From Gammaproteobacteria bacterium (GTDB taxonomy: Bacteria; Pseudomonadota; Gammaproteobacteria; Burkholderiales; Rhodocyclaceae), in the NCBI GenBank assembly GCA_018824085.1, contig JAHJHI010000043.1, forward strand, positions 1 through 64,000: a DNA stretch of 64,000 nt, written 5' to 3'. Position numbers and translations under genes: made by a program. Positions 9,139 to 47,688 of the stretch are shown piece by piece. The first letter of the stretch is position 1, and each line of letters opens with the position of its first letter. The notes beneath the pieces were generated by a model that saw only the letters and a program-made list of their open reading frames with translations, was not told where the DNA came from and did not search any database.

Positions 9139-9674
9139 GCGCCACTCCATTTCAGGCGCATCGAGAACGCAACGACCTTCATGCCCTGGCGCTCGCGCAA
9201 CTCGAACACCTCGATGCGCGGCGAACCCGTCACCTTCGCGTCGGCGAATGACTCCGCGTAGGCGAACAGCGCGTTCAGATCCTTTGCTTCGCCCGTCAGG
9301 CGCAGCACGCGACGCCCGGCGTCCGGCTCGAGCGACAGCAGCGCGACGTCTTCGCCGCGCGCTTCGAGATCCGCGAACAATGCCGGCCAGTCACGCGCCA
9401 TCGACGCCGACAGCTTGCGCGCCACGTCCAGTCGCGCACGCAACTCCACGTCGTCCTGCTCCAGCCGTGCCAGCACTCGCGCCTGCTCGGCCGCGCGCGC
9501 CGCGCGGCGGTTCGATTCCTGCAGCGCCTCGACATCCGTTTCCAGTTGCTGGTACTGACGCACCGCACCGAACGCGGCCGCCAGGCCGATCGCCAGCACC
9601 AGCCAGCCCAGCCAGCCGGGCGCGCGACGGCGGGCGACGAAGTCGAATTCCGGTACCGCCGGACGCATCTTCAT
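9135..9674 (-). CDS. PilN/GspL-C-like assembly platform protein
   Basis: A 179-residue protein with a short cytoplasmic tail (MKMRPAVPEFDFVARRR), one membrane helix (GWLGWLVLAIGLAAAFGAV), a long coiled coil (about residues 45-105) and a C-terminal periplasmic alpha/beta domain. It fits PilN or the periplasmic half of GspL. With the PilM-like and PilO-like neighbours it forms the inner-membrane platform. Its ATG overlaps the upstream stop by ATGA, as across this operon. Confidence 0.7.
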   Translation of the reverse strand: MKMRPAVPEFDFVARRRAPGWLGWLVLAIGLAAAFGAVRQYQQLETDVEALQESNRRAARAAEQARVLARLEQDDVELRARLDVARKLSASMARDWPALFADLEARGEDVALLSLEPDAGRRVLRLTGEAKDLNALFAYAESFADAKVTGSPRIEVFELRERQGMKVVAFSMRLKWSGA

Positions 9675-10364
9675 GCAGCCACCCCGCTTGCCACGCAGCG
9701 CCAGCCGCGCGGCAGGCTGACCGCCGGCGCGCCGTGCAGGAAGAGCTGTCCGCCGGACAGATCGCCGTCGAGCAGATTGAGGCGGCGCTCCAGCACGGTC
9801 GCCAGTCCGGCCGGATCGGACAGCGCCTCGCCGCGCATGTGCAGCCAGCGTCGGCCGGACCACAGCCCGAGGCACAGCCAGCCATGCCGCAGCTGCGCAA
9901 ACCCGCCGAGCGCGGCGGTGCCGCGAAAATGCGCGTAGGCACGCAGCCAGTCGGGCTGAACGCTGTGCAGCCCGAGGGCCCGCGCAGCGCACCAGGCTTC
10001 GAGCGCACGCAGCAACGCGGCGTCCATGCCGCACGCAAGCACGCCGTCAGCCGGCCGGGTGTCCCAGGCGAACGTCCAGCCCTGCGCGGTGGTGCCGAAC
10101 ACCTCGACCATGCGCGCGCGCACCAGCGCCTGCTGTTCATCCGCACCGGACACGCCGGGCGGCATGTCGACCACCTGCCAGCGCGTCCATGCGTTGTCGA
10201 TCGTCACCTCGACGCGCGCGCGTCGCGGCGTCACCGCTTCGGGCACGGCGTCGAGCGCCGCCGGAAGGTTCTGCAGCGACAGCAGTTGCGCGACCGAATG
10301 CACGATTTCGCCGCCCGCTTCCAGGGACAGGCCGTGCGGGCCGAGCGCCAGCGCGATGCGCCGG

Positions 10365-10384
<20 letters not shown>
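9671..10384 (-). CDS. PilM/GspL-N-like cytoplasmic platform protein
   Basis: A 237-residue protein, GTG start, overlapping the end of the ATPase gene by 20 bp. It has no membrane helix. The opening strands (RRIALALGPHGLSLEAGGE) and later pieces (RWQVVDMPPGVSGADEQQAL) resemble the actin-like fold of PilM and of the GspL cytoplasmic half, which recruits the motor ATPase. ATP-binding residues are not clearly kept. Split PilM-like plus PilN-like genes, rather than one fused gspL, place the system nearer type IV pili or MSH-type machines than to classical Gsp. Confidence 0.65.
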
Positions 10385-12025
<1,641 letters not shown>

Positions 12026-14483: not shown

Positions 14484-15650
14484 CTACTTCAGGCGTTCCA
14501 GCAGTGACACGTAGTTCGCGACCCCGGCGCCCCCCATATTGAGGATGCCGGCTGCCTGCGCGCCCGCGATCTGCATGTCGGCGGCCGCGTCGCACAGCTG
14601 CATGGCCGCCATGACGTGCATCGACACGCCGGTCGCGCCGATCGGATGGCCCTTGGCTTTCAGGCCGCCCGACGGGTTCACCGGCAGGCGGCCGTCCTTC
14701 GCCGTCCAGCCCTCGAGTGCGGCGCGCGCGCCCTGGCCGCGCGGCGTGAGGCCCATCGCTTCGTACTCCATCAGTTCGGCCACCGTGAAGCAGTCGTGCG
14801 TCTCCACCAGCGACAGGTCGTCCAGCGTCATGCCGGCGGCTTCGAAAGCCTGTGCCCAGGCGCGCGCGGCGCCGTCCAGCCAGGACATGTCGCGCGCCGA
14901 CATCGGCATCAGGTCATTCACCTGCGCACGTGAGCGAAAGCGCACCGCCTTCGCCATGCCGGCGGCAACGTCGTCGGCCGCCAGCACCAGCGCAGCCGCG
15001 CCGTCGGACACCGGCGAACAGTCGGTGCGCCGCAACCGTCCGGCCACGATGGGGTTGCGCTCGCTCACCGTGTCGCAAAAGCTGACCCCGAGATCCTTGC
15101 GCATCTGCGCATACGGGTTCGCGAGGCCGTTTGCATGGTTCTTTGCCGCAATGTGTGCGAGCGCCGTCGACTGGTCGCCGTATGCAGCGAAATAGCGGTC
15201 GGCGATGCCGGCGAACAGCCCGGCAAAACCGCCGTCGATGTCCGACTCTTCCTTGAGGTAGGACGCATGCAGCAGGATTTCGCCGATGCGCTTGCCCGGC
15301 TGGCCGGTCATGTGCTCGGCGCCGATGACCAGCGCGGTACGTATCCGTCCGGCGGCGATCGCGTCGAGTGCACCGTGTATCGCCGCACTGCCGGTGGCGC
15401 AGGCATTCTCGACGCGGGTGGCCGGCCGGTAGCGCAGACCGGGCACGGCGTTCATCACCAGCGAGGCGCAAAAGTCCTGTTCCGTGAAACCGCTGTTGAA
15501 GTGACCCAGCCAGACCGCGTCGATATCCTCGGGCTGCAGGCCCGCGTCCGCGATGGCAGCGCCGGCCACCGATGCGATGAGGCTTTCCAGGTCCTCGTTT
15601 TCGTGCCGTCCGAACACGCCGTGACACCATCCGACGATGCATCCACTCAT
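14484..15650 (-). CDS. Thiolase (SCP2-type acetyl-CoA C-acyltransferase)
   Basis: A 388-residue thiolase. The nucleophilic Cys84 is in VENACATGSAAIH; the other active-site blocks are ETHDCFTVAE (His) and KAKGHPIGATG (His), with GGAG near the end. The SCP2-like arrangement HDCF is typical of bacterial lipid-transfer-like thiolases in catabolic operons. In this operon it would cleave a 3-oxoacyl-CoA, for example benzoylacetyl-CoA, to an acyl-CoA and acetyl-CoA. It is the last gene and overlaps the ligase by ATGA. The substrate is inferred from context. Confidence 0.88.
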   Translation of the reverse strand: MSGCIVGWCHGVFGRHENEDLESLIASVAGAAIADAGLQPEDIDAVWLGHFNSGFTEQDFCASLVMNAVPGLRYRPATRVENACATGSAAIHGALDAIAAGRIRTALVIGAEHMTGQPGKRIGEILLHASYLKEESDIDGGFAGLFAGIADRYFAAYGDQSTALAHIAAKNHANGLANPYAQMRKDLGVSFCDTVSERNPIVAGRLRRTDCSPVSDGAAALVLAADDVAAGMAKAVRFRSRAQVNDLMPMSARDMSWLDGAARAWAQAFEAAGMTLDDLSLVETHDCFTVAELMEYEAMGLTPRGQGARAALEGWTAKDGRLPVNPSGGLKAKGHPIGATGVSMHVMAAMQLCDAAADMQIAGAQAAGILNMGGAGVANYVSLLERLK

Positions 15651-17200
15651 GCCGATTCTCCCTTGTCGTCTTCTTCCGAAAGCCAGGACCGCAAGGTGGT
15701 CTTGGTCACCTTGCCGTAGTTGTTCTTGGGCAGCGCCTCGATGAAGCGGTAGTCCTTCGGCCGCTTGAAGCGCGCGATGCGCGCAAGGCAGTGCGCGTCC
15801 AGTTCCGCCACGCCGGGTGCGGGCGTACCGGCAGCCACGACGAAGGCGACGATGTCCTCGCCCCAGTCCGGATCCGGACGGCCGATCACGGACACTTCCC
15901 GCACACCGGGATGGGTGAGCAGGCACTCCTCGACTTCGCGCGGATAGACGTTGGTTCCGCCGGAAATGATCACGTCCTTCGAGCGGTCCTTCAGCGTCAG
16001 GTAGCCGGCGGCGTCGAAGGCGCCGAGATCGCCGGTCAGCAGCCAGCCATCGCGTATCGTCTCGGCGGTCGCCGCCGGCCGGCCCCAGTAGCCGAGCATG
16101 ACCGTCGGCCCGCGCACCATCACTTCGCCGGTGTCACCGCAGGGCAGCGCGCGCCCCGCCTCGTCACCGACGCGCACCTCGACCAGCGACTGCGCTACGC
16201 CGACCGAAGCGAGGCGCGCCGCCTGCCCGGGCATGCCGTCCGCGCGATGGCGCCGCTTGTTCAGCGCCGTGATGGTCATCGGCGTCTCGCCCTGGCCGTA
16301 GATCTGCACCAGCCGCTCGCCCAGCGTGTCGAGCGCGCGCAGGCTGTCCGCGACATACATCGGCCCGCCGCCATACACGATGGTCTTCAGGCCCGGCAGG
16401 TTCCCGTGGTCGATGTCCCGGCAATTCACCAGGCGGTGCACCATCGTCGGCGCCGCGAAGAAGGACACGCCGGTGTGTGCGCGGCACAGCGCGGCGATCT
16501 CCTGCGGATCGAAGCCGCCGCTCTCCGGCACCACCTGGGCCGCCGCCGCAAGCACGTGCGGCAGGATGTACATGCCCGAGCCGTGGCTCATCGGCGCCGG
16601 ATGCAGCACGCAATCGGTCGGCGCAACGCTGTCGACGTCCATGAAGTAGCAGGCCGTCATCGCCGACAGGTTGCCGGCGCTGAGCATCGCGCCCTTGGGC
16701 TGGCCGGTGGTGCCCGAGGTATAGAACAGCCAGCTGAGCGTATCCGCGTGCGCCGGCTCCGGTTGCGCCATCGGTTCCGCCGCAAGCAGTGCCTTCCAGT
16801 CGGCGCCGCCCAGTTCGATCACGCGGACCCGGCCGTCGCGCACGCTGGCCGCACCGGACAGCGCGCCGGCGAAGTCCGCGGTGACGACGCAGGCGCTCGC
16901 GCCGCTGTCCTCCAGGATGAAGTCGATCTCCGCCGGATGCAGCTTGGCGTTGACCGGCACCACCACCAGACCGGCCCACCAGGCGGCGAACAGCACGGTC
17001 ACGTAGTCAGGCGTGTTCTTCATGACGATGGCGATGCGCTCGCCGGGCGTCAGGCGCATGCGCGTACGCAGCCCGCCGGCGAGGTGCGACGCCTGTCCGG
17101 CCAGCGCGGCATAGGTCGCACGCACCGTCGTGCCGTGGATGAGCGCGGGCCGGTGGCCTTCGGTTCGCCCGGCGCGCACCAGCATTTCAGCAAGATTCAT
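15647..17200 (-). CDS. Acyl-CoA ligase (AMP-forming), probable beta-keto acid ligase
   Basis: A 517-residue ANL-family ligase. It has the phosphate-binding loop LFYTSGTTGQPKGAML near residue 165, the adenine motif VQIYGQGETP, the hinge-region GDLGAFDAAGYLTLKDR and the C-terminal catalytic lysine in KNNYGKVTKTTL. It would activate the carboxylation product as a CoA thioester with ATP. In acetophenone degraders the equivalent is benzoylacetate-CoA ligase. The start MNLAEMLV is preceded by GAAGGGA; a 19-residue longer frame lacks support. It overlaps the thiolase start, so the two are coupled. Confidence 0.85.
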   Translation of the reverse strand: MNLAEMLVRAGRTEGHRPALIHGTTVRATYAALAGQASHLAGGLRTRMRLTPGERIAIVMKNTPDYVTVLFAAWWAGLVVVPVNAKLHPAEIDFILEDSGASACVVTADFAGALSGAASVRDGRVRVIELGGADWKALLAAEPMAQPEPAHADTLSWLFYTSGTTGQPKGAMLSAGNLSAMTACYFMDVDSVAPTDCVLHPAPMSHGSGMYILPHVLAAAAQVVPESGGFDPQEIAALCRAHTGVSFFAAPTMVHRLVNCRDIDHGNLPGLKTIVYGGGPMYVADSLRALDTLGERLVQIYGQGETPMTITALNKRRHRADGMPGQAARLASVGVAQSLVEVRVGDEAGRALPCGDTGEVMVRGPTVMLGYWGRPAATAETIRDGWLLTGDLGAFDAAGYLTLKDRSKDVIISGGTNVYPREVEECLLTHPGVREVSVIGRPDPDWGEDIVAFVVAAGTPAPGVAELDAHCLARIARFKRPKDYRFIEALPKNNYGKVTKTTLRSWLSEEDDKGESA

Positions 17201-17260
17201 CGTGCATTTTCCCTTCTGTCGAATCCGCCTGCCGCGCATCGCGGCGGAGCTCGCCACCCG

Positions 17261-17333
17261 GGTCTTTCGCGGCGCCGCCTGGCCTGCGGTCCGGGCGGAA
17301 AGCTGCTTGCTGCGGCGAACGCCGCGAAAGACC
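17261..17333. repeat. 14-bp inverted repeat with 45-nt structured loop
   Basis: The arms GGTCTTTCGCGGCG (17261-17274) and CGCCGCGAAAGACC (17320-17333) are perfect complements, enclosing a GC-rich loop that can itself pair (CCGCC with GGCGG). It lies in the 174-bp gap between the GTPase and ligase genes, the longest gap inside this operon. It may be an RNA stability element, an attenuator or a dispersed repeat. Confidence 0.6.
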
Positions 17334-17374
17334 TTGCGTGCGGCCTGCCTGCCACACCGCCGTGCCGGACGGTT

Positions 17375-18382
17375 TCACCGGCACAGCGCCTCGAAGCCCG
17401 CTTCCATCTCCTGGCGCACCAGGTTCCGGCCGATCACGATCAGGCAGCCCCCGATCTGCGGGTCCGGCCAGGCGTCCAGCCATTGCAGCGGGTGGAACTT
17501 GCCGCGCACGCCGTGCACGATGGCGGCCCGTCCGTCGCGCTCGCGAAAGCGCAGCACGCCCTTCACGCGCAGCACTTCGCCGTGTTCGCTATTGACCAGA
17601 CGGTTGAGGAAGACGGTCAGGCCGGCGAGGCTCACCGCGTCGTCGGCGCGGAAGGCGCAACTCATGTATTCGGCACCGTGGTCATGCCGGCGCGACGGCG
17701 CGGCAGCCCCGCCTGCACCGGCCGCGACGCCAAGCCAGCGCGACATGCGCCCGCGCGGTGGCTGGTACAGGCCGCGCCGGAACAGCTGCATCGGGTCGAT
17801 GTCGCCATGCGGCGCGCAGACGCGTTCGGCATCGGGATTGATCGCATCGAGCACCACGAGCGCCGCCGCCTTCTGCGACCTCGTTGCGAGGTCGCCCTTG
17901 GTGAGCACCAGCAGATCGGCCATTGCGACCTGGTCGGCCGCCGTGCGATGCGCCGCGACGGTGTCGCCGAGCGCGCACAGATCTACGCAGGTGATCACGG
18001 CGTCCGGATGGAACACGCCCTTGAACGCCGGTGTGACGGTAAGCGTATGCAGCAGCGGACCGGGATCGGCCAGGCCGGTGGTTTCCACCAGCACGTAATC
18101 GAACGCCGGAATGTCGCCGAGCAGGCGTCGCGCATGGAGGTCGCGCAAGGTGAGCGCGAGGTCCTGGTGGATGGTGCAGCAGATGCAGCCGTTGCGCAGT
18201 TCGATCACGGTTTCGGTCGATGTCTCCACCATCAGGTGATCGAGCCCGATTTCGCCGAATTCGTTGATGATGACCGCCGTATTGCGCAGGTCGGGATGGG
18301 CCAGCGCCTGCTGGATGAGGGTCGTCTTGCCGCTGCCGAGGAAGCCGGTGACGAAGCCGACCGGGGTCGAAGTACGGGTCAT
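17375..18382 (-). CDS. COG0523 (CobW/P47K-type) metal-chaperone GTPase
   Basis: A 335-residue G3E-family GTPase. It has P-loop GFLGSGKTT near residue 12, INEFGEIGLDH, the metal-binding CXCC motif NGCICC, Walker B ETTGLADP and base-recognition TKGD. A His-rich loop (SRRHDHGAEY) precedes the CobW C-terminal domain, where HGVRGKFHPLQWL is typical. These proteins deliver Zn, Co or other metals to client enzymes. Its place inside a carboxylase operon suggests it metallates that enzyme; acetone carboxylase needs Mn/Fe/Zn and the Apc core is reported to hold Zn. The client is inferred. Confidence 0.88.
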   Translation of the reverse strand: MTRTSTPVGFVTGFLGSGKTTLIQQALAHPDLRNTAVIINEFGEIGLDHLMVETSTETVIELRNGCICCTIHQDLALTLRDLHARRLLGDIPAFDYVLVETTGLADPGPLLHTLTVTPAFKGVFHPDAVITCVDLCALGDTVAAHRTAADQVAMADLLVLTKGDLATRSQKAAALVVLDAINPDAERVCAPHGDIDPMQLFRRGLYQPPRGRMSRWLGVAAGAGGAAAPSRRHDHGAEYMSCAFRADDAVSLAGLTVFLNRLVNSEHGEVLRVKGVLRFRERDGRAAIVHGVRGKFHPLQWLDAWPDPQIGGCLIVIGRNLVRQEMEAGFEALCR

Positions 18383-18395
18383 CGCACGCGATCCG

Positions 18396-19211
18396 TCACG
18401 CCGGCCTCGCGGCCAGCGCCTGCGTCCGCGCGACCACGTCCTCCGGTCGCGCCGAAGCGGGAATTTCGCCGTACAGCGCGGGCAGCACCGGCAGCGACCG
18501 CGCCGGCCCGCTCCAGTATGCGGCGCCGAGGCTGCCGCCGATGCGTGCATCGGCGCACGCCGCGAGCAGCGCCGGATCGGCGTCCGGATAGAGGAATAGA
18601 TCCGCCTCGACATCGCCGCCCGCCTCGCCCGGAGGCGCGACCGCGGTGAAGGCGAACGCCACCGCCCAGCCGTAGTAGCGCGCCATGGCGATCAGCGGCG
18701 CGACAGCCTCTGCTTCGTCGCCATCCAGTGCGGTGCGGCCGGCGAGCCGCAGCAGCAGCGCACTCACCGGCTTTTCCGACAAGCGGCGCAGCAGCGCGGT
18801 CGCGCCCATCGCGATGTCGTCCAGCGCGTCGAACGACGCCGGCGCGTCGTCCGACGTACCGAGCGCGGCCAGCAGGTCGCGTGGCGACGGCAGCGCGAGC
18901 ACGATGTCGGCGCGGCTGGACAGCTGGTGTCCCAGCGCGTCGAGCAGGGTGTCCAGATAGCCGGCCGGGCTGTCGGCCCCGAACAGGTCGCCGCCGCCAC
19001 GGGCCGCGATGAAGGGCGCCGCAATGTCTATCGCGACGACCTGTGAGCGCACGACCGCGTTCGCCTGCGCGAGCGTCGCCGCGCGCCGCAGCGGATCGCT
19101 CAGCCAGTCACCGGCGCCGCCCGCGAACACCGTGTGCGCATAGGCGTCGAAGTCGATCCACAGCAGCGGCCGGCCGCCGCCCTTCCAGCCCGCATGGAGG
19201 AACTGCCCCAT
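18396..19211 (-). CDS. Putative epsilon (ApcE-like) subunit of ATP-dependent carboxylase
   Basis: A 271-residue soluble protein (about 28 kDa) with no domain I recognise. It begins MGQFLHAGWKGGGRPLLWID and contains Ala/Leu-rich helices and a FLYPDADPALLAACADARIG stretch. It lies five bases after the hydantoinase-B-like gene. In acetophenone carboxylase of Aromatoleum a fifth subunit, epsilon (about 34 kDa), is encoded after the core genes and falls off on purification; position and size make this the likely counterpart, somewhat shorter. No similarity was tested. Confidence 0.55.
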   Translation of the reverse strand: MGQFLHAGWKGGGRPLLWIDFDAYAHTVFAGGAGDWLSDPLRRAATLAQANAVVRSQVVAIDIAAPFIAARGGGDLFGADSPAGYLDTLLDALGHQLSSRADIVLALPSPRDLLAALGTSDDAPASFDALDDIAMGATALLRRLSEKPVSALLLRLAGRTALDGDEAEAVAPLIAMARYYGWAVAFAFTAVAPPGEAGGDVEADLFLYPDADPALLAACADARIGGSLGAAYWSGPARSLPVLPALYGEIPASARPEDVVARTQALAARPA

Positions 19212-19216
19212 GGCGC

Positions 19217-21445
19217 TCAGCCGGCCAGCTCGCGCGCGGCCAGCTCGCGCTCGAGCTCGGCGATGCGCACGTCCTTGGGGTCCGGCATCATCACCGACAC
19301 GATGGCGTCCCCCGGGCAGGTGTCGTGCGGCGTGCCACGATGGATGACCGCGCGGTCGGACCACGAGCCGTAGTAAGGAAGGCCTTCCGGCGGCAGCGCC
19401 GTCACCCACTCCTTCACGAACTGGTCATAGGGCTTGCCGCGCTTCTTGCGCGCCTCGCGCTCGGCACGACGGGCCGCGGCGGTCGCGTCCGCCAGCACGG
19501 CGCCGCTCTTTTCATCCAGCACCACGTGATAGATGTCCGCCACCACGCGTGGCGACACCAGCCCGTCGCGGAAGTCGTCCGCGACGTCCTCCGGCGCCCG
19601 TTCGAGCACGTCACCGTAACCGCCGCCAGCGCCCTGGGTGATCATGTACAGCTCGCCCGGCTGCGCGAATTCCAGCTGCAGCCCCATGTGGTGCGTGCTG
19701 TAGCGCGCGCCCTCGAAGGGACGCTCGTTCATGATGTCCTCGATGGTGTAGCGCAGCAGGTCCCGCCGCTCCTGCATCACCTCGAACACATTGACGCCGC
19801 GCACCTTGCACAGCGGGTAGGTGCCGGGTGAATAGCCGCCGAAGATGCCGTGCGAACTCGGAAACTTCGAGCCGATGGCGCAGCACATGAAGCCCCACAT
19901 CGAGGTGTCCTTCATGGTTGCGATCTGCTGGTAGCCGTGCCCGCCGCGATACTTGCCGAAGCCCTGGTTGTCCTTCATCACGCGGTTGGGCACGATCTTC
20001 ATCATCGGCACCTCTTCTTCGATCAGCTCCTGTTCGCCGATGTCGGCCATCGGCGCGAAGATGGGTGCCACCGAATGCTCGCCGTCGCGGTTGGCTCGCG
20101 CCGCGCCGCCCATGCCGTTGAGGTCGGCGCAGACGTTGCCCACCAGTTCGCCGTACTGGTTCAGGCCGCCGTAGATGAAGGTGACGATCATGTTGTACCA
20201 GCCGGCGATGATGTCGGTGGAGCGCTCGCCGGCGCTGTACAGCAGCTTGGGCACCGCCAGCTGGGCGGCGGTGAAGCTCGGGAAGAAGGTCATCATGCTC
20301 TGCGCGTTGGGCGCGCCGGGCGAGCAGTTGAGCACCGATCCGGCATCGGTGATCACCGTCATCGGTTCGAACACCGCCTGGTTGCGTGGCAGGTCGGGCC
20401 ACACGAAGGTGAGGAATTCCTGCGCCAGCATGCCCTTGGCCGACGCCAGCACCGTGTTGTTGGCACGGTTCAGGAATTCCGGCGACGAGCCGCGGAAATC
20501 CAGCGTCAGGCCGTCGTCCTTCTTGGTCATTTCCAGGCAGATCTTGACCAGGCAGTTCTCGCGCAGCGTGCCGTCGGCGAACACCGTCTGCCGTATCTTG
20601 CCGTCGGGCCAGGTGCGCAGGCGCCGGCGCACCTCTTCCGCGGTGTCGGTCAGCGTGCGGCGCAGGCAGGCCGTGACCGCCTCGACGCCGTATTCGGCGA
20701 TCGTCTCCTCGATGCGCGACTTCATGCGCATGGCCGCATACAGCTTGGACTTCATGCCTTCGAGCTGCAGCTTGGGCTCGCGCACGGAGTTCTGCAGGAA
20801 GGTCATCAGGTCGCGCCGGAAGGTGTAGTTCTCGCCCACCTTGATCGGCGACATCTTCAGGCCTTCGTCGAACGGTGATTCCGCCTTCGACGGCATGCCG
20901 CCCGGCTCGGTGGCGCCATTCTCGCCCTCATGCACGACGGCGCCGGTGAAGCAGATCAGCCGGCCCTCGTGGAACACCGGGATGACCAGGCTCTGGTCGG
21001 TGTTGTGGATGTTGCCGTAGCGCGCATCGTTGTGCACGAAGATGTCGCCTTCGCGGATGCCCACCGTCGGATCGTCCGCCCAGTACTTCAGGATGAACTT
21101 CACCGGATGCTGGGTGAGTACGGAAAACAGCAGCACCCCGCCCATGCTGGACAGCGCCAGATCGCCGGACGCGGTCCACACGCCGGAGATCAGATCGCCC
21201 CACTTGGCACCCGGTGCGGCGCCCATCTGCTCCACCATGTCGAAGGATTCGTTGCAGGCGGTCAGCAGCTTGTGGCGCACCAGATTGAGCTCGTCGGCGA
21301 CGGCGAACTTCGCCAGCGCCACGGTTTCCTCCGGCGTCTCCGGCGCCAGTCGGTGGTTGTTCATGATTTCAGGATCGGGCCCCAGGAAAAGCACGTTTTC
21401 CTGCAGGAATTTCTCGACCAGCGACTTCTCTTCATTCGCGCTCAT
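19217..21445 (-). CDS. apcD: Hydantoinase B/oxoprolinase-family subunit of ATP-dependent carboxylase
   Basis: A 742-residue subunit of the HyuB family (Apc/acetone carboxylase beta-type fold: beta-barrel plus polyproline helices). Family pieces are DIFVHNDARYGNIHNTDQSL, FTGAVVHEGENGATEPGG, a C-terminal GHGYQQIATMKDTSMW and QGAGGGYGDVLERAPEDVAD. This fold is thought to hold the carboxylation site between two kinase subunits. Start MSANEEK has a GGAG-type site. The symbol follows the Aromatoleum order A-B-C-D-E from memory; ketone specificity is not deducible from sequence here. Confidence 0.8.
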   Translation of the reverse strand: MSANEEKSLVEKFLQENVLFLGPDPEIMNNHRLAPETPEETVALAKFAVADELNLVRHKLLTACNESFDMVEQMGAAPGAKWGDLISGVWTASGDLALSSMGGVLLFSVLTQHPVKFILKYWADDPTVGIREGDIFVHNDARYGNIHNTDQSLVIPVFHEGRLICFTGAVVHEGENGATEPGGMPSKAESPFDEGLKMSPIKVGENYTFRRDLMTFLQNSVREPKLQLEGMKSKLYAAMRMKSRIEETIAEYGVEAVTACLRRTLTDTAEEVRRRLRTWPDGKIRQTVFADGTLRENCLVKICLEMTKKDDGLTLDFRGSSPEFLNRANNTVLASAKGMLAQEFLTFVWPDLPRNQAVFEPMTVITDAGSVLNCSPGAPNAQSMMTFFPSFTAAQLAVPKLLYSAGERSTDIIAGWYNMIVTFIYGGLNQYGELVGNVCADLNGMGGAARANRDGEHSVAPIFAPMADIGEQELIEEEVPMMKIVPNRVMKDNQGFGKYRGGHGYQQIATMKDTSMWGFMCCAIGSKFPSSHGIFGGYSPGTYPLCKVRGVNVFEVMQERRDLLRYTIEDIMNERPFEGARYSTHHMGLQLEFAQPGELYMITQGAGGGYGDVLERAPEDVADDFRDGLVSPRVVADIYHVVLDEKSGAVLADATAAARRAEREARKKRGKPYDQFVKEWVTALPPEGLPYYGSWSDRAVIHRGTPHDTCPGDAIVSVMMPDPKDVRIAELERELAARELAG

Positions 21446-21470
21446 GGTGTCTCCTCGTGTGCGGACGCGC

Positions 21471-23597
21471 TCAGGCCGTGCGCCGCATGACGGCGGCACC
21501 CATGCGGCCCATCGTCAGCGTCCAGCCGGCTTCGACCAGATAGGTCGTGAAGGGGGTTTCGATCAGCGCCGGGCCCTCGACGCGCATGCCCTCGCGCACC
21601 GCGTCGTGCGCGTGGACGGCGGTTTCCAGCGGCCCGTCGACGTTCGCGAAGTGGCACATGCGATGGCTGTGAGGACGCGCCAGGCCGGCGTCGCCGGCGG
21701 TGCCCGGCTGCAGGTCCAGATGTTCGTGCTCGACATAGGAGACAACACGGATCACGTTCACCCGCACGCCCGCCTCCGGTGCCTGGCTGCCCTCGCCGAA
21801 GCGGCGCGCATAGTTCTCGCTGAAGATGTCGAGCAGCGCGATCACCTGCGAAGTCGAGGTGATGCGCCGGTACGGACACACGATGCCGATCTGCGCCAGC
21901 TGGTTGCCGTAGCGCATGTCGAGTTCAACCCGCGTTCGGATCTGTTCGTCGGCGACGCCCTGGCGGCGCAGATCCTCGCGTCCGCGCGCCTCCAGTTCGA
22001 CGATGGCCTCGTTGAAGGCGGTGAAATCCTCCAGCATGCAACGCACGTTGGCATCGAACAGCATCAGGTAGAGCGAGCGCTCGTGGATGTGCAGCTGGTC
22101 CATGTTGCCCGCGCCCAGCGCCGAGAACACGGAGCTGAACGGCGGAATCAGGATTTCGGTGATGCCGATGCCGGCCGAATAGCCGCAGGCGTGCAGCGGG
22201 CCCCCGCCGCCGTAGCTCAGCACGCGGAAGCTCTTCGGGTTGTAGCCCTTGATCGCCACTTCCTTGAAGATCGCGGCCGCCATGTTGGCATCGACCTTGC
22301 GACGGATCCCCCGCGCGGCGTCGATCACGCTCATGCCGGTGGGCTTGCAGATGTGCTCTTCGATCGCCCGCTCGGCGCGTCGCCGGCTCAGCTTGATGGA
22401 GCTGCCGGCGTAGTTGTCCTCGTCCAGATAGCCGAGCAGGAGATTGGCGTCCGTCACCGTCGGAAAGCGGCCGCCGCGTCCGTAGCAGGCCGGCCCGGGA
22501 TCGGAACCGGCACTCTCGGGACCGACTTCGATGGCGTCCCACATGCGGTCGTAGCGCGCGATCGATCCGCCACCGGCGCCCAGCGTGTGCAGATAGGTCA
22601 TCGGCGTGCTGACCAGCCAGCGGTCGATGATGGGATTGAAGTCGTAGAACTTCGCGCCGTCGGCGGTGACCAGCCCGATGTCGAAACTGGTGCCGCCCAT
22701 GTCGGTGGCGATCAGATTGGGCTGGCCGAAACGCTTCGACAGGAAGCTGGTCGCCTCCAGTCCGGCGACCGGCCCGGAGTGGATGGTCTGCAGCGACGAG
22801 GTCGAATTCATCTGCGCCATGCCTGCCGTGTTGTGCACCAGAAGCATCGGCCGGCGATAGCCGTGCTTGCGCAGCACGACTTCCAGCGTCGCCATGCCGT
22901 GGTACATCCGGTCGTGCAGATAGGCGTCGATGACGGACGACAGCGTGCGCGTGTATTCGCCCTTGCGGCCGGCCACGCGGTGCGACAGCACGATGGGGAT
23001 GGCGCCCAGCAGGTGGCTCGGAAATTCCGACAGGATGATGCGTTCCACCTCGCGCTCGTGCGCCGGATTGACCACCGAATTCACCAGCGCGACAACAAAG
23101 GCCTGCGCCCCCTCGTCGACCAGCCTGCACACCTTCTTGCGCACGTCGGCCGGGTCGATCGTCAGCACCACGTCGCCCTTGAAATCGATGCGCTCCTCGA
23201 TGCCGGTGATGCGGGTGACCGGCACCAGGCTGAGCGGACGGTCCGCCGCCGGCAGGTCTACCTGCTCCAGCGCGGAGAGCCCGTCGCCGTAGCCGCGTGC
23301 CCGCATCAGCGGCACCGTCGACTCGAAGCCGGCGGTCGTGATCACCGCCACGTCCGGACCGTTGCGCTCGATCAGCGCATTGGTGCCCAGCGTCGTCGCG
23401 TAGCGCACCGAGTCGAGCTCGCGCAGCACGTCATCCGCCGTGCGCCCGATGGACGAGCAGGCCGAGCCCAGCGCCTCCATGAATCCGGTCGCCAGATTGT
23501 TGTGCGTGGTCAGCGCCTTGGCCTGCACGTACTCGCCGTCGAAGGCGAGGAAGCAGTCGGTGAAGGTGCCGCCGATATCAACACTCACTCGCCTCAT
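21471..23597 (-). CDS. apcC: Hydantoinase A-family (ASKHA) kinase subunit 2 of carboxylase
   Basis: A 708-residue ASKHA-superfamily subunit. Phosphate-1 motif VSVDIGGTFTDCFL at the N-terminus, phosphate-2 LIATDMGGTSFDIGL near 295 and adenosine motif VLSYGGGGPLHACG near 455 are all intact, so it should bind ATP. In the Apc structure two such kinases are proposed to phosphorylate the ketone enol and bicarbonate separately. This one is the longer of the two here, and is closer in size to acetone carboxylase beta. It is followed 25 bp later by the HyuB-like gene. Confidence 0.82.
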   Translation of the reverse strand: MRRVSVDIGGTFTDCFLAFDGEYVQAKALTTHNNLATGFMEALGSACSSIGRTADDVLRELDSVRYATTLGTNALIERNGPDVAVITTAGFESTVPLMRARGYGDGLSALEQVDLPAADRPLSLVPVTRITGIEERIDFKGDVVLTIDPADVRKKVCRLVDEGAQAFVVALVNSVVNPAHEREVERIILSEFPSHLLGAIPIVLSHRVAGRKGEYTRTLSSVIDAYLHDRMYHGMATLEVVLRKHGYRRPMLLVHNTAGMAQMNSTSSLQTIHSGPVAGLEATSFLSKRFGQPNLIATDMGGTSFDIGLVTADGAKFYDFNPIIDRWLVSTPMTYLHTLGAGGGSIARYDRMWDAIEVGPESAGSDPGPACYGRGGRFPTVTDANLLLGYLDEDNYAGSSIKLSRRRAERAIEEHICKPTGMSVIDAARGIRRKVDANMAAAIFKEVAIKGYNPKSFRVLSYGGGGPLHACGYSAGIGITEILIPPFSSVFSALGAGNMDQLHIHERSLYLMLFDANVRCMLEDFTAFNEAIVELEARGREDLRRQGVADEQIRTRVELDMRYGNQLAQIGIVCPYRRITSTSQVIALLDIFSENYARRFGEGSQAPEAGVRVNVIRVVSYVEHEHLDLQPGTAGDAGLARPHSHRMCHFANVDGPLETAVHAHDAVREGMRVEGPALIETPFTTYLVEAGWTLTMGRMGAAVMRRTA

Positions 23598-23598
23598 G

Positions 23599-23961
23599 TC
23601 AGGCCCCCTTCCCGTTCGCGTTGCCGAGGTGGCGTGCCTTCAGGCTGTCGATGTCCAGTTCGATGTCATGGGTCAGCGGGTGGCCGGGCGGCAGGTATTC
23701 GTTCTCCATCAGCGTGCCGCAGCACGGGCAGTAGAACTCGACGATGCGGCACCAGGCCGGATCCGGCGCATAGGTGTATTCGTAGCGCGACGGATCGAGT
23801 TTGGGATCGTGGATGTCGCGCGGGTCGCGGTCGTACACCAGCAGGCCGCGCTTGTAGTTGTCGCGTGCCGGCGCGATGTCGCGATCGCAGACGCGGCACA
23901 GCCAGCGCTCGCTTTCCAGGTCGATCGAGAGGTATTCGGTGATCGCGATGCGGGTACTCAT
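23599..23961 (-). CDS. apcB: Small Cys-rich (gamma-type) carboxylase subunit
   Basis: A 120-residue protein of the acetone carboxylase gamma type. Conserved cysteines fit a zinc site: Cys22 and Cys25 (LCRVCDRDI) pair with Cys78-Cys81 (YCPCCGTLME). The middle contains RDPRDIHDPKLDPSRYEYTY, which is characteristic of the family. It starts inside the ATGA overlap with the first ASKHA subunit and ends one base before the second, so three core subunits are translated together. In family members this subunit sits on the outside of the HyuB chain. Confidence 0.82.
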   Translation of the reverse strand: MSTRIAITEYLSIDLESERWLCRVCDRDIAPARDNYKRGLLVYDRDPRDIHDPKLDPSRYEYTYAPDPAWCRIVEFYCPCCGTLMENEYLPPGHPLTHDIELDIDSLKARHLGNANGKGA

Positions 23962-25880
23962 TGCATGGCCTCCAGCAGGATGTCCTTGTTCGGCGTGACG
24001 CGGAATGTCCAGCCCGCGCCCACGAGGCAGGTGAGGTATTCGCCCTGGATGAGGGCCGGGCCGGCGGCGCCATGGCCGGGCGCAAGCGCCCCGGCCTGAT
24101 GCACCGGCACGCGCTGGCCCGAGCCGTCGGCGCGCGCCAGCGCCGCGTGGCCCTGCGGCACCGGCGCGCCGGTGACGGCACCGTCGTCGTCGATCAACGA
24201 AAAGGTGGGCAGCTGGAACACGGCGCGCAGACACAGCGTCGTGTCGCTGCCGGGATACAGCATCGTGCGCCCGCCCAGCGGCGTCTCTTCCAGACGACCG
24301 TCGTCGCACGACAAGGCGCTGAACACGTAGTTGCAGTCATTGGGGTCGACGCGCTCGCCCGACATGTCGCGCCGCGCCCGCTCCAGCATGGCGAGCTTCG
24401 CCTCGACCAGCGCGTCCGCGTCCGGCATCGGCTGGTGATACTCGTGAGCAAGATGGCTGAAGCCGATGCCGAAGGCGCTGAATACCGCTGACATGTGCGG
24501 CACGATGATGCGACGGATGCCCGCGGCATCCGCGATGGCGGTGACGATCATCGGCCCGCCGCCGCCGAAGGCGAGCAGCGTGGCCCTGGCGGGCGACTGC
24601 CCGGTCCGCTGGATCGCCTGCCGGAGGTGGCTGCCGGCGCGCGTCGCGAAGGCGTCGATCATTCTATTGACGGCGGCCTCGAGCGACAGGCCGAGCGGCT
24701 CGGCAACCGCGCGCCCGACCGCCGCCCCGGCACGCGCAGGGTCCAGCTTCAGCTCCCCGCCGAGATAGTCGTCCGCCGCGATCACGCCGGCGAGCAGCAG
24801 TGCGTCGGTCAGCGTGGCGGCCGTGCCACCGCGTGCGAAACAGGCCGGGCCGGGCGCCGCGCCCACGCTTTCCGGCCCGACCCTGATCTCGCCGTCCACC
24901 GCCGCGATGACCGAGCTGCCGCCCAGGCCGTAGCTGTGCATGTCGGGCAGCGGAAACGCGATGCGCGCGCCCTCGATCTCGCCGACCGCATTGCGCCGGA
25001 TGCAGCCGTCCACCGCAACCGCGACATCGGTGGTGGTGCCGCCGATGTCCATGGCCACCATGGCGGGCGACGCGTAGTGACGGGCATAGGCCAGCGTGCC
25101 CTGCAGACCGCCACGCGGGCCCGAGCCCCAGGTCTTGATCGCGGTCGTGCGGGCCACGCGGGCGGAATCGCCGTCGTTGCGGAAGATGAGCAGCGGACTG
25201 GCCAGCCGGTGCGTCTTGCAGACGCGGTCGGCGCCGTACAGGAAGTGCTCCATGCCCGGATGCAGATAGGAATTGAGCAGCGCGGTCAGGGTGCGCCGCG
25301 CGGCGTCCTTCTCGCGGATCAGTTCATGCGACAGCAGGAAGGGCACGGCGCCGAGCAGATGCCGCGGGTACTTTTCCAGCAGCAGATCCTTCACCGCCGT
25401 CTCCGCCTGCGCCGTGCGCAACGCGATGACCAGCCTCTGGGCGCCGGTGGTCAGCGCCTGATTCACCCTGCCGGTCAGCTCGTCCGCGTCCACCGTGCCG
25501 TCGGCCCCCACCTTCAGCCCGATCGGCTCGCCGGTCACCAGCGCCTGCCACAACCCGCTGTCGACGCTCGCGCCACGCGCGCCATAGGCGTCCGCTTCGG
25601 CGCCCGCCTCCACGATCAGCGCAACCGGCACGCCCTTGCGTTCGACCACCGCGTTGGTACCGGCAGTCGTCGAATAGCGCAGGTAGTCCGTCTCGCGCAG
25701 CAGGCGCCCGAGATCCTCGCTGCCGTACAGCCGGTGCGAGGCCTTGCGCAGGCCATCCACGAAACACTGCGTCAGATCGTGCGGTGTGGTCGGCGACTTG
25801 GCGTGATGGACACGCCCGCCGTCACGCACGCAAACGTCGGTGAATGTGCCGCCGTTGTCGATATTGATCAAAAGTCCCAT
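23958..25880 (-). CDS. apcA: Hydantoinase A-family (ASKHA) kinase subunit 1 of carboxylase
   Basis: A 640-residue ASKHA subunit (about 68 kDa), first gene of the operon. Phosphate-1 is LINIDNGGTFTDVCV (DNGGTFTD instead of the usual DIGGTFTD), phosphate-2 VAMDIGGTTTDVAV near 275, adenosine LAFGGGGPMIVTA near 435. Having two distinct ASKHA subunits plus a gamma-type and one HyuB-type subunit is the acetophenone carboxylase layout; acetone carboxylase has only one ASKHA subunit. The 5' leader is about 98 bases from the predicted sigma-54 start. Confidence 0.83.
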   Translation of the reverse strand: MGLLINIDNGGTFTDVCVRDGGRVHHAKSPTTPHDLTQCFVDGLRKASHRLYGSEDLGRLLRETDYLRYSTTAGTNAVVERKGVPVALIVEAGAEADAYGARGASVDSGLWQALVTGEPIGLKVGADGTVDADELTGRVNQALTTGAQRLVIALRTAQAETAVKDLLLEKYPRHLLGAVPFLLSHELIREKDAARRTLTALLNSYLHPGMEHFLYGADRVCKTHRLASPLLIFRNDGDSARVARTTAIKTWGSGPRGGLQGTLAYARHYASPAMVAMDIGGTTTDVAVAVDGCIRRNAVGEIEGARIAFPLPDMHSYGLGGSSVIAAVDGEIRVGPESVGAAPGPACFARGGTAATLTDALLLAGVIAADDYLGGELKLDPARAGAAVGRAVAEPLGLSLEAAVNRMIDAFATRAGSHLRQAIQRTGQSPARATLLAFGGGGPMIVTAIADAAGIRRIIVPHMSAVFSAFGIGFSHLAHEYHQPMPDADALVEAKLAMLERARRDMSGERVDPNDCNYVFSALSCDDGRLEETPLGGRTMLYPGSDTTLCLRAVFQLPTFSLIDDDGAVTGAPVPQGHAALARADGSGQRVPVHQAGALAPGHGAAGPALIQGEYLTCLVGAGWTFRVTPNKDILLEAMQ

Positions 25881-25988: not shown

Positions 25989-26005
25989 CGCAGCATCCGT
26001 GCCAA
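25989..26005 (-). promoter_or_regulatory. Sigma-54 (-24/-12) promoter of the carboxylase operon
   Basis: The reverse strand reads TTGGCACGGATGCTGCG: TGGCACG at -24 matches consensus fully, and the -12 GC is 12 bases from the GG as required, with CTGCG in place of TTGCA. The predicted start is near 25978. A sigma-54 activator gene lies divergently upstream. Confidence 0.8.
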
Positions 26006-26078: not shown

Positions 26079-26128
26079 CGGACAGCCGGGCGACGAGCGC
26101 CGGACAGATGTGTCCGATATGCCGGACA
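26079..26128. promoter_or_regulatory. Enhancer-like array of CGGACA boxes
   Basis: CGGACA occurs at 26079, 26101 and 26123, exactly 22 bp apart. TGTCCG at 26111 makes a palindrome CGGACA-N4-TGTCCG with the second box and TGTCCG-N6-CGGACA with the third. The array lies about 100-140 bp upstream of the predicted transcription start, the usual place for an enhancer-binding protein. A fourth, out-of-phase CGGACA is at 26199, closer to the activator gene. The 469-bp gap 25881-26349 thus holds the operon control region. Confidence 0.7.
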
Positions 26129-26349
26129 GTGACGGCGCCGCCCTCTTGCGCAATCGCCCGCGCACCACGGACGGCATCGCGGTGCACCATCCGCACGCCG
26201 GACAAAACCCTTGCCCTGACGTGGTTTTTGGGCTTTTATCTGCGCTGGGCAAGAGGAGACAACCGTGGTCCCGCACCGGCCAGGCAGAGCGGCGGCGCCA
26301 CGATGGACGCACGAGGAGCCGGGACCGCGAGGCCCCGGAGACAAGCGCC

Positions 26350-28404
26350 ATGACGGCACCCGTGAAGAACCCCTATGTCGGCTTCCGCAAGGACGCACGC
26401 GGGGTGAAAACCCTGTGGGAACGCTTCAACGCCGGGCTGGTGCGCCGGGACGAACTGCGTGACCGCTACCACCACATGCTGGTCGGCGAGTGGGAGCGCT
26501 GCACGGCGCTCGGCGTCGACGTGGCGATGAACCGCGGCCGCCGGCTGAGCGACGTCGAGTTCGCGCAACGCCGTGCCGACGAACGCGTGCTGCTCGATCG
26601 TTCGCTGCCGGTCATCGACGATGTCGGACGCTATCTGCGCGACGTCCCGGGCATCATGATCCTGACCGAAAGCACTGGCTGCATCCTGCACATATCGGGC
26701 GAGCAGCGCATCCGCGAGCTCGCGGCGGAGACCTCCGGCATCATCGACGGCTCCATGTGGGGCGAAGGCGTCGCCGGCTCGAACGGCATCGGCACCGCGC
26801 TCTCGAAACGACACCCGGTACACGTCTTTTCCAGCGAGCACTTCTGCGAGGGCTGGCACGGCTGGTCCTGCGCCGCCGCACCGATCTTCGAGCCGGACGG
26901 CCAGACCCTGCTGGGCGTCATCGACTTCACGACGGTCGACGACGACTATCGCGACCAGACGCTCGGGTTGACCGTGTCGCTCGCCAATTCGATACAGGCG
27001 CAGATTTCGCTGCACCGGGAACTGGAGCGCCGGGTGCTGCTCGCCGCCTTCGGCGACTGCGCCCGGCGCTATCCGAACGACGACATCGTCGCGCTCGATC
27101 ACGCGGGCCGGGCGGTGATGCAGACGCCATCCGATCGCTGTGCCGCGCTGGTGGCCCGCATGTCACCGCACGGCGGCGGCGCCGCGCTGCCGGCACGCGA
27201 GGTGATCGACATCGCGGCGCCGGACGGCGTACAGCGCATCGGCAGCATTGCCATCCTCGGCGGTACGACGCGCCAGGCTTCGACGCAGCCGGCGCATGTG
27301 GCGCAACCGCTTGCCGGCAATGCGGCGACCGACGCGACCGGCCTGAACGACGGCGCGGACATCGTGCGCTTTGGCGACTTCGTCACCAGCGACCCGGCGA
27401 CGCGACGCATGATCGCCGACGTGCAGCGGGTGGCGCCGGCCGACGTGAACATCCTCATCTTCGGCGAAACCGGTACCGGCAAGGAGCTGCTGGCACGTCA
27501 TATCCATGCCAGCAGTCCACGCCGCCTGTTGCCGTATATCGCCGTGAATTGCGGCGCGATCAGCGAGGCGCTGCTTGAAAGCACGCTGTTCGGCTATGTT
27601 CGCGGCGCGTTCTCCGGCGCCGACCCGCGCGGGCGCGCCGGCTATTTCGAAAGTGCGCGCGGCGGCACGCTCTTTCTCGACGAAATTGGCGAACTGCCGC
27701 GGCCGATGCAGGCCGCGCTGCTGCGCGTGCTGGAGGACGGCAGCTTCCAGCGCATCGGCTCGTGCGAAACGCAGCACGCAACCTGTCGCATCATTGCCGC
27801 CACCAATCGCCGGCTGGAAGAAGAAGTGGCGAGCGGGCGTTTCCGGCGCGACCTCTACTACCGGCTGAAGATCGTGCGCCACGAAATCCGGCCGCTGCGC
27901 GCACGCGCCTGCGACATTCCGCTGCTCACCCGCCAGTTCGTCGCCAGCCTCGCCCGCAAACACGGCCGCACGGCGCCGCGCGTGTCGGCCGAGGCACAGT
28001 CCACCCTGAATGCATGGCACTGGCCGGGCAACGCGCGCGAACTGCGCAATGTGCTGGAGTCGGCGGTGCTGTGCGCGGACGACCTGATCACGCCCGACTG
28101 CCTGCCGAACGACGTGCTGCCGGCGCGCGGCGGGCAGGCGTCCACCGCGCGCGTCGACGGCCCCGGCGAGGCGCCGATGGCGGCCCCGGATCATGCCGCC
28201 TCCGGTCGTGTCGCCGGCAGTACCGCGGAACCGGTGTCCACCGGGCGGCTGGAGTCGGTACTCGAATGCGAGCGACGCATCATCATTTCGACGCTGTGCG
28301 CCTGCCGCAAGGTGAGCGCTGCGGCGAAACAGCTCGGCATGGCGCGCTCGACGCTCTACAAGAAGTTCGAGCGGCTCGGCATCGACCAGAACCAGTACCT
28401 GTAG
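26350..28404 (+). CDS. Sigma-54-dependent activator, AcoR/AcxR type
   Basis: A 684-residue activator, divergent from the carboxylase operon and its likely regulator. The N-terminal part has a GAF-type sensor domain (about 60-230, with WGEGVAGSNGIGTAL and LLGVIDFTTVDDDYRDQTLG), the centre is the sigma-54 AAA+ domain (about 335-560) with Walker A GETGTGKE near 373 and Walker [13 protein letters not shown], and the end is a Fis-type helix-turn-helix (VSAAAKQLGMARSTLYKKFE). The sigma-54 contact loop reads GAFSGA rather than GAFTGA. Start MTAPVKNPY has GGAG upstream; a longer frame would run through the CGGACA array. Confidence 0.9.
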   Translation: MTAPVKNPYVGFRKDARGVKTLWERFNAGLVRRDELRDRYHHMLVGEWERCTALGVDVAMNRGRRLSDVEFAQRRADERVLLDRSLPVIDDVGRYLRDVPGIMILTESTGCILHISGEQRIRELAAETSGIIDGSMWGEGVAGSNGIGTALSKRHPVHVFSSEHFCEGWHGWSCAAAPIFEPDGQTLLGVIDFTTVDDDYRDQTLGLTVSLANSIQAQISLHRELERRVLLAAFGDCARRYPNDDIVALDHAGRAVMQTPSDRCAALVARMSPHGGGAALPAREVIDIAAPDGVQRIGSIAILGGTTRQASTQPAHVAQPLAGNAATDATGLNDGADIVRFGDFVTSDPATRRMIADVQRVAPADVNILIFGETGTGKELLARHIHASSPRRLLPYIAVNCGAISEALLESTLFGYVRGAFSGADPRGRAGYFESARGGTLFLDEIGELPRPMQAALLRVLEDGSFQRIGSCETQHATCRIIAATNRRLEEEVASGRFRRDLYYRLKIVRHEIRPLRARACDIPLLTRQFVASLARKHGRTAPRVSAEAQSTLNAWHWPGNARELRNVLESAVLCADDLITPDCLPNDVLPARGGQASTARVDGPGEAPMAAPDHAASGRVAGSTAEPVSTGRLESVLECERRIIISTLCACRKVSAAAKQLGMARSTLYKKFERLGIDQNQYL

Positions 28405-45703: not shown

Positions 45704-45704
45704 G

Positions 45705-45965
45705 TCAGGCATCCTCCTGCACGCCGTATTCATGGTCGAGGCGGTTCATGACCCGCGCGTAATACCAGATGATGACCACGTACACGATGAGCGATCCCTG
45801 TGCCCCCATGTAGAACGCCAGCGGCCAGCCGAAAACGACGATGTCGTTCAGCTCCCGCGCGTAGTAGATCGGGATGAAGGTGACGCTGAACCACAGCGCG
45901 ACGAGCACTGCAGTGATGTGAAGATTGCGGCGCCAGTATTCACGGTGCCTGCCCGACAACTGCAT
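45705..45965 (-). CDS. DUF4212 small subunit of the symporter
   Basis: An 86-residue membrane protein with two helices (ITAVLVALWFSVTFIPIYYA and FYMGAQGSLIVYVVIIWYYA) and the family ending YYARVMNRLDHEYGV. DUF4212 proteins are found directly upstream of VC_2705-type symporters and are regarded as their small partner. Its stop overlaps the region before the symporter start by a few bases. Upstream, 45966-46183 holds no gene I can support. Confidence 0.9.
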   Translation of the reverse strand: MQLSGRHREYWRRNLHITAVLVALWFSVTFIPIYYARELNDIVVFGWPLAFYMGAQGSLIVYVVIIWYYARVMNRLDHEYGVQEDA

Positions 45966-47623: not shown

Positions 47624-47637
47624 GGCATGCCGGACTG

Positions 47638-47688
47638 CCGCCCCCGGCAGCTCCCGACGCTGCACGCGTCGGGAGCTGCCGGGGGCGG
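47638..47688. repeat. 22-bp perfect hairpin between acs and the CBS/DUF294 gene
   Basis: Arms 47638-47659 and 47667-47688 are perfectly complementary over 22 bp, with a 7-base loop (CTGCACG). It starts ten bases after the acs stop. There is no T-run after it in either direction, so it is not a standard terminator; it may stabilise the acs mRNA end or attenuate the downstream gene. Confidence 0.8.

Follow-up and report, generated by a model that had tools for sequence, protein, structure and literature searches.

The described systems closest to the locus studied here are acetophenone carboxylase (Apc) of Aromatoleum aromaticum (PDB 5l9w, 9fou), acetone carboxylase AcxABC (5svb, 5m45) and the ATP-dependent hydantoinases, oxoprolinases and caprolactamase (6yra, 7hk5). 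In the excerpts of the Apc structure paper used here, apcABCD(E) encode the α′, γ, α, β and ε subunits in that order, and at the time of writing a single enzyme of the Apc branch had been characterised biochemically (PMC5214803). The locus is an eight-gene operon in a 64,000-nucleotide stretch of contig JAHJHI010000043.1 (assembly GCA_018824085.1, a gammaproteobacterium of the Rhodocyclaceae); this whole stretch is referred to as the window. Like Apc of A. aromaticum, the operon has five subunit types in identical gene order, two ASKHA subunits, a four-Cys γ, a HyuB-type β with aligned metal ligands, an ApcE-like ε barrel and a CoA ligase downstream. Unlike it, the operon also carries a CobW GTPase and a thiolase, its ligase is of a different kind, and one divergent sigma-54 activator stands where excerpts of PMC4729919 describe two-component systems for apc-bal. 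AcxABC shares related α, β and γ subunits and the aligned metal ligands but has one ASKHA subunit, no ε and the order acxABC, while the hydantoinases, oxoprolinases and caprolactamase share HyuA/HyuB-type subunits but have two core subunits and neither γ nor ε (both after the same excerpts of PMC5214803). Judged from its sequence, the operon is probably a five-subunit Apc-type ketone carboxylase gene set joined by putative chaperone, ligase and thiolase genes; it resembles acetophenone carboxylase only distantly and falls into a separate, widespread clade.

The operon occupies positions 25880 to 14484 of the minus strand as eight co-directed genes in the order A, B, C, D, E, CobW GTPase, ligase and thiolase. 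Its genes, with start codons chosen by us from the sequence, and the associated regulatory features are as follows.

23958-25880, minus strand: A, α′ subunit (ApcA-like, ASKHA ATP site), 640 residues; Hydantoinase_A, E 1.4e-61
23599-23961, minus strand: B, γ subunit (ApcB-like, four-Cys site), 120 residues; Acetone_carb_G, E 4.8e-37
21471-23597, minus strand: C, α subunit (ApcC-like, ASKHA, presumed ketone kinase), 708 residues; Hydantoinase_A, Hydant_A_N and Hydant_A_C
19217-21445, minus strand: D, β subunit (ApcD-like, HyuB type, metal site), 742 residues; Hydantoinase_B, E 1.8e-75
18396-19211, minus strand: E, ε subunit (ApcE-like β/α barrel by predicted fold), 271 residues
17375-18382, minus strand: CobW/COG0523 G3E GTPase, putative metallochaperone, 335 residues; cobW, E 1e-45, and CobW_C, E 1.8e-14
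15647-17200, minus strand: AMP-forming acyl-CoA ligase, 517 residues; AMP-binding, E 5.7e-73
14484-15650, minus strand: SCP2-type thiolase, 388 residues; PRK07516, 640 bits against a cut-off of 412; HDCF motif
26110-28404, plus strand: open reading frame (ORF) of a divergent sigma-54-dependent activator (GAF, AAA+, Fis-type helix-turn-helix), probable start about 26350; Sigma54_activat, E 5.4e-63
25989-26004, minus strand: candidate sigma-54 -24/-12 promoter TGGCACGGATGCTGCG, matching 10 of 12 consensus positions
26111-26128, no strand: candidate activator-binding palindrome TGTCCG-N6-CGGACA

Genes A and B overlap by 4 bp, as do the ligase and thiolase genes, and the remaining gaps are 1 bp (B-C), 25 bp (C-D), 5 bp (D-E), 13 bp (E-GTPase) and 174 bp (GTPase-ligase). 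A first-pass annotation of this DNA had described eight same-strand genes, mostly overlapping or a few bases apart, and the coordinates and the Pfam and NCBIfam matches bear this out. Its inventory of two ASKHA subunits, a Cys-rich γ and one HyuB subunit agrees with the Hydantoinase_A matches in A and C, Acetone_carb_G in B and Hydantoinase_B in D, and Pfam likewise recovers the GTPase (cobW and CobW_C), the AMP-forming ligase (AMP-binding) and the thiolase. The annotation had overlooked a ninth gene, the divergent activator.

Each of the core subunits A-D has its nearest solved structure in Apc 5l9w. The best PDB match of A is ApcA (276 bits, E 7.5e-81). B scores 129.5 bits (8.3e-37) against ApcB, its best PDB match, and 44.5 bits (1.5e-10) against acetone carboxylase γ; C scores 497 bits against ApcC versus 287-291 for acetone carboxylase and oxoprolinase; and D scores 312.7 bits against ApcD, compared with 156. 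In local alignments with Apc of locus L037, whose D gene is the sole one above the ApcD cut-off among 297 genomes, A-D are 35, 56, 36 and 33% identical, respectively. The 120-residue γ compares with 129 residues in solved ApcB and 168 in acetone carboxylase γ chains, and the 742-residue β falls between the 684-residue Apc and 776-residue acetone carboxylase chains. Both ASKHA subunits carry ATP motifs, DNGGTFTD, DIGGTT and GAAPGP in A and DIGGTFTD, DMGGTS and GSDPGP in C, and B carries two CxxC pairs (CRVC and CPCC). The R/KERiDsxG fingerprint, for which we required only the ERID..G core, occurs in C (ERIDFKG) and gave no match in A; the leading R/K is a Glu in C (EERIDFKG). The metal ligands of acetone carboxylase are E89, H150, D153 and H175 (excerpts of PMC5543143), and the mercury site of Apc β is formed by D65, H123, D126 and H148 (excerpts of PMC5214803). 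Residues D84, H147, D150 and H172 of D align with both sets and are invariant in all 12 aligned β subunits.

The fifth subunit, called unknown in the first-pass annotation, is indeed present, but is ApcE-like by predicted fold. Neither Pfam nor NCBIfam gave a match to it at E ≤ 0.001, and a Pfam scan of 45 ε members revealed no consistent family. A structural model built from the alignment of these 45 proteins had a mean predicted local distance difference test score (pLDDT) of 92.8. In a Foldseek search of the PDB its top three matches were ApcE chains B, A and D of 9fou (E 7.5e-7 to 3.4e-6), at 16% identity and a template-modelling (TM) score of about 0.6, followed by the uroporphyrinogen decarboxylase (UroD) structure 4wsh (2.3e-4) and other barrels. 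The fold search settled the relation to ApcE, and E, as modelled, is the ε subunit with a UroD-like barrel. We found no paper on 9fou in the open-licence literature. Among four distant proteins at the ε position, two reach the URO-D family (8.5e-5 and 2.9e-5), just under the cut-off, and the other two, including ApcE of L037, gave no URO-D match.

To place the operon among its relatives we kept the best 80 of 315 candidate loci from a scan of named genomes, with flanks of at most 10 kb and several short contigs; locus counts out of 81 are these 80 plus the window. Matches to ApcD at E ≤ 1e-60 occur in 30 of the 297 genomes of the family; the relatives belong to the Alpha-, Beta- and Gammaproteobacteria, the Bacillales and a small number of other groups. 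The E profile finds an ε gene in 71 of the 80 loci, some of the nine misses being short contigs. In a quick tree of 104 β subunits, the window pairs with locus L057 (support 97); both lie in a W clade of 23 rows (support 98), and all window-type rows form a 91-row group (support 99) apart from Apc proper and the acetone carboxylases. Several branches of this tree are long, including those leading to L091 and L105 within the W clade. The first-pass annotation would have been refuted by a grouping of all ASKHA subunits with hydantoinases or oxoprolinases; no such grouping appeared for β, the subunit covered by this quick tree. The Apc-like assignment holds up, given that all core subunits are nearest to Apc among solved structures and ε is ApcE-like by fold. 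The window operon belongs to a separate branch of wide distribution, and all five subunit types, the divergent ε included, are present at most of its loci that were examined.

By homology with Apc, the pathway type proposed earlier, from ketone to β-keto acid, to its CoA ester, to acyl-CoA plus acetyl-CoA, appears correct. The α subunit would phosphorylate the ketone enol and α′ bicarbonate, each with ATP; ε would help to unite the two phosphorylated intermediates, the C-C bond forming near the metal held by β (D84, H147, D150, H172), and γ would contribute a structural four-Cys site. The COG0523 GTPase may help to load metal into β or γ. The ligase would then convert the β-keto acid to its CoA ester, from which the thiolase would release acyl-CoA and acetyl-CoA. 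We consider it likely that the locus is a sigma-54-controlled catabolic operon for a ketone, with the CobW protein aiding metal loading and the ligase and thiolase acting downstream.

Control by sigma-54 through the divergent activator is inferred from the predicted promoter at 26004-25989. The acx genes of Xanthobacter are under sigma-54 control. Across 686 alignment columns, the window activator shares 57% identity with the regulator next to the L057 operon; the alignment begins at residue 81, so the true start is probably near 26350. When the A genes of 70 relatives were scored (4 were skipped), sites matching at least 10 of 12 positions within 250 bp upstream were present in 22 of the 30 loci that have the activator cluster and in 11 of the 40 that lack it, versus 47 of 3500 random 250-bp stretches. 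At L057, the closest relative by β, the upstream site failed the strict GG filter. The palindrome at 26111-26128 is the only match in the window at one mismatch or fewer, and 31 of 100 shuffles also contain one; a similar palindrome, TGTCCG-N5-CGGACA, lies upstream of the L057 operon. As a separate observation, eight alphaproteobacterial loci (L092, L093, L095, L096, L100, L117, L119 and L122) have an extra rpoN gene near the carboxylase genes, as identified from a scanned cluster member.

The GTPase has a P-loop (GFLGSGKT), a CxCC motif (CICC) and a CobW_C domain, and the label of metal chaperone is putative, from family and motifs. According to excerpts of PMC9164220, many COG0523 GTPases have unknown targets, and Nha3, the COG0523 metallochaperone of Fe-type nitrile hydratase, has the same G3E P-loop and CxCC and a gene adjoining that of its metalloenzyme, as the window GTPase gene adjoins that of a presumed one; in contrast to Nha3, client, metal and need for GTP are at most putative for the window GTPase. 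We found no paper linking CobW to Apc-like operons in the open-licence literature, which is not proof of absence, and the words hydantoin, carboxylase and ketone are absent from the main text of PMC2770081. The CobW homology cluster occurs in 32 of the 81 loci and, by our division of the β tree, in 25 of 36 loci of the Z clade and 7 of 23 of the W clade. A ZIP transporter cluster (one member scanned) is found in L104, L108, L109, L113 and L118, four of which lack a nearby CobW gene. Together, CobW or ZIP covers 29 of the 36 Z-clade loci (four added by ZIP), 7 of 23 in the W clade, 0 of 22 in the three remaining groups and 36 of 81 overall. PF02492 gave 5-11 matches per genome in 12 genomes, from which our own arithmetic expects about 2-5% per 22 kb; since the loci are related, the association is no formal test.

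These counts bear on two readings. In the first, the clade would be a separate five-subunit ketone carboxylase acting on a ketone new to this enzyme type and, in some of its members, dependent on a dedicated COG0523 GTPase, or on a neighbouring ZIP importer, for its β metal; we put this forward tentatively, somewhat short of an even chance. If true, it would supply a previously unnamed COG0523 client, to be contrasted naturally with the acetone carboxylases, whose aligned ligand set is loaded unaided. The operon offers a candidate client and a means of testing why enzymes with such ligands would or would not need a chaperone. In the second, which is possible but which we do not favour, the carboxylase assignment is right and the CobW gene serves general metal homeostasis with no role in maturation of the enzyme. 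The CobW cluster is absent from the three remaining groups (0/7, 0/7 and 0/8), which comprise 22 loci and which we call Bacilli, Nevskia and Alpha2, and acetone carboxylases acquire their metal in E. coli without a chaperone (excerpts of PMC10865871). Moreover, of the four Apc-proper loci of 20 kb, L039 contains a CobW-like gene (143.5 bits), and such a gene is thus not unique to the window-type clade; none of the three Acx loci L157, L158 and L165 has one. Against general homeostasis stand the Z-clade counts and the correlation between GTPase and β distances (Mantel rho 0.79 for 32 sequences, with 0 of 2000 permutations as high), which could in part reflect shared descent, since related genomes may produce correlated trees.

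The first-pass annotation had doubted that acetophenone is the substrate, and this doubt is strengthened. BoxB was not detected in the genome and is present in 4/4 comparison genomes; HGD-D was likewise not detected, and the Aromatoleum-like G100 has four copies. The ligase is FadD-like, below the equivalog cut-offs shown, and differs from the ligase of L037 (blastp E 1.7e-4, no phmmer match). On genome contig C51 a second γ gene adjoins HyuA/HyuB-type genes that match those of acetone carboxylase in size, the ORFs of this acetone-carboxylase-like set measuring 754, 778 and 176 residues. The separate AcxABC-like genes and the missing BoxB and HGD-D make acetone and acetophenone less likely substrates, and by this gene content another ketone appears more likely. 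At seven proposed Apc pocket positions, the residues read LFNPIQT in 4/4 Apc, TIHPIYL in 20/20 W-clade members (L091 and L105 left out), TIHPIHL in 57 of the remaining 58 relatives (the exception carries Leu instead of Ile), LIVPMAM in 3/3 Acx and THNPIEV in 3/3 of a third group. Seven columns distinguish W from all others, and the Tyr/His position is among them. We had considered these residues as proof of a new substrate, but this argument is weakened and the pattern is no more than suggestive: the residues are clade-fixed, yet many other columns fixed in both groups differ as well.

A strict-sense acetophenone or hydroxyacetophenone carboxylase would fit the operon's Apc-type subunits, gene order and ε fold, but we consider this reading unlikely given the lack of BoxB and HGD-D (which does not cover a route from hydroxyacetophenone to hydroxybenzoate), the unlike ligase, the separate β-tree clade and the five of seven pocket residues in C that differ, without enrichment, from the four close Apc. 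Slightly less likely still is a second acetone or butanone carboxylase using a two-kinase mechanism. In some relatives, such as the Aneurinibacillus locus L079, a CoA-transferase and a thiolase accompany the operon, as would suit acetoacetate, and a Zn alcohol dehydrogenase cluster lies near 6 of the 81 loci; the genome, however, holds its own AcxABC-like genes, and in place of a CoA-transferase the window operon contains a ligase. An acetone carboxylase proper was rejected on subunit content, the operon having neither a single ASKHA subunit, nor the order acxABC, nor a long γ. A hydantoinase, lactamase or other ATP-dependent hydrolase, suggested by the Pfam names of A, C and D and by caprolactamase models matching below cut-offs, is highly improbable and was rejected on subunit content, because the two-gene hydrolases lack the γ, second ASKHA (here α′) and ε subunits found here (excerpts of PMC5214803), the ligase and thiolase fit a β-keto acid, and both C and D match Apc with better scores than they do hydantoinases.

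Several observations weigh against the preferred reading of a sigma-54-controlled, CobW-assisted Apc-type carboxylase for a ketone other than acetone or acetophenone. All four NCBIfam equivalog cut-offs for ApcA-D were missed (323.5/1250, 155/250, 527.6/1500 and 345.2/1500 bits), D is longer than the Apc β chain, and E matched a profile of four ApcE sequences weakly, although colinearly (hhalign E 0.005, probability 6.9). The promoter is one of six such sites in the window. The window-type regulator cluster is present in just 2 of the 23 W-clade loci, several on short contigs, and CobW in 7 of the 23; neither gene is thus obligatory. With regard to substrate, two of the three comparison genomes, G017 and G032, are likewise without HGD-D, and the window's genome has two untyped Ring_hydroxyl_A matches. 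The missing BoxB and HGD-D, with no search made for class II benzoyl-CoA reductase, would still allow benzoyl-CoA to be hydrolysed and the ring to be cleaved by another route. Finally, the pocket differences are not enriched (P 0.13), as 78 of 212 columns fixed in both groups also differ.

Neighbours of the relatives were grouped into homology clusters, one or two members of each being scanned by Pfam. AMP-ligase clusters occur near 29, thiolase near 21 and CoA-transferase near 12 of the 81 loci, for which the Pfam check covered one transferase and one non-T thiolase member. Other neighbours include MMPL, DUF1302, DUF1329 and YCF48 genes, which, as a guess, might serve uptake of a hydrophobic compound, as well as CoA-transferases and alcohol dehydrogenases; L058 also has BKACE and biotin-carboxylase genes. 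None of them fixes the substrate. In W-clade loci L062, L064, L069, L070, L071 and L074 a tryptophan-halogenase-like flavoprotein gene (one member scanned) adjoins the operon. L064 is titled a Klebsiella pneumoniae metagenome-assembled genome (MAG), but its β groups with environmental gammaproteobacterial MAGs and the title is probably wrong. Genome G017, which its contig identity with L082 marks as a betaproteobacterial MAG from groundwater, has 11 Acetone_carb_G matches, some partial (contigs C6, C8, C23, C40, C43, C56, C59, C64 and C74; related loci L040, L043 and L159-L164), a sequence pattern that suggests many parallel ketone carboxylases.

The window operon is flanked by type II secretion-like genes (identified by eye), PEP-CTERM proteins and a two-component system. 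Using these neighbours to deduce the substrate was rejected, as the flanks join without the operon in three congeners. The neighbouring secretion-type gene recurs in twelve further genomes of the genus, and nine were read over 20 kb on one side; none of the nine has an intact operon at this site. In L181-L183 the flanks join with about 100 bp between them and the whole 14.4-28.5 kb unit is missing, and L184 has about 2.5 kb of other DNA at the site. In L185-L189 the far flank lies beyond the 20 kb read: L185, L186 and L188 have ligase and thiolase homologues and no apc genes, and L189 has no close match. L187 has ligase and thiolase homologues, a LuxR-type regulator and a 253-residue ORF (9643-10404, plus strand of the stretch as read). 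In its residues 56-251 this ORF resembles the end of the C subunit, and it is probably what decay has left of a similar operon once located here. This variation indicates that the operon was gained, lost or replaced at the site within the genus. A window-family β gene is present elsewhere in 4 of the 12 congeners (G206, G243, G257 and G295). Further along the window, an acetyl-CoA synthetase-like gene (47698-49668, minus strand) lies near sodium:solute symporter and DUF294/CBS genes (43637-45733 and 46184-47665, both minus strand), which together look like an acetate-use set.

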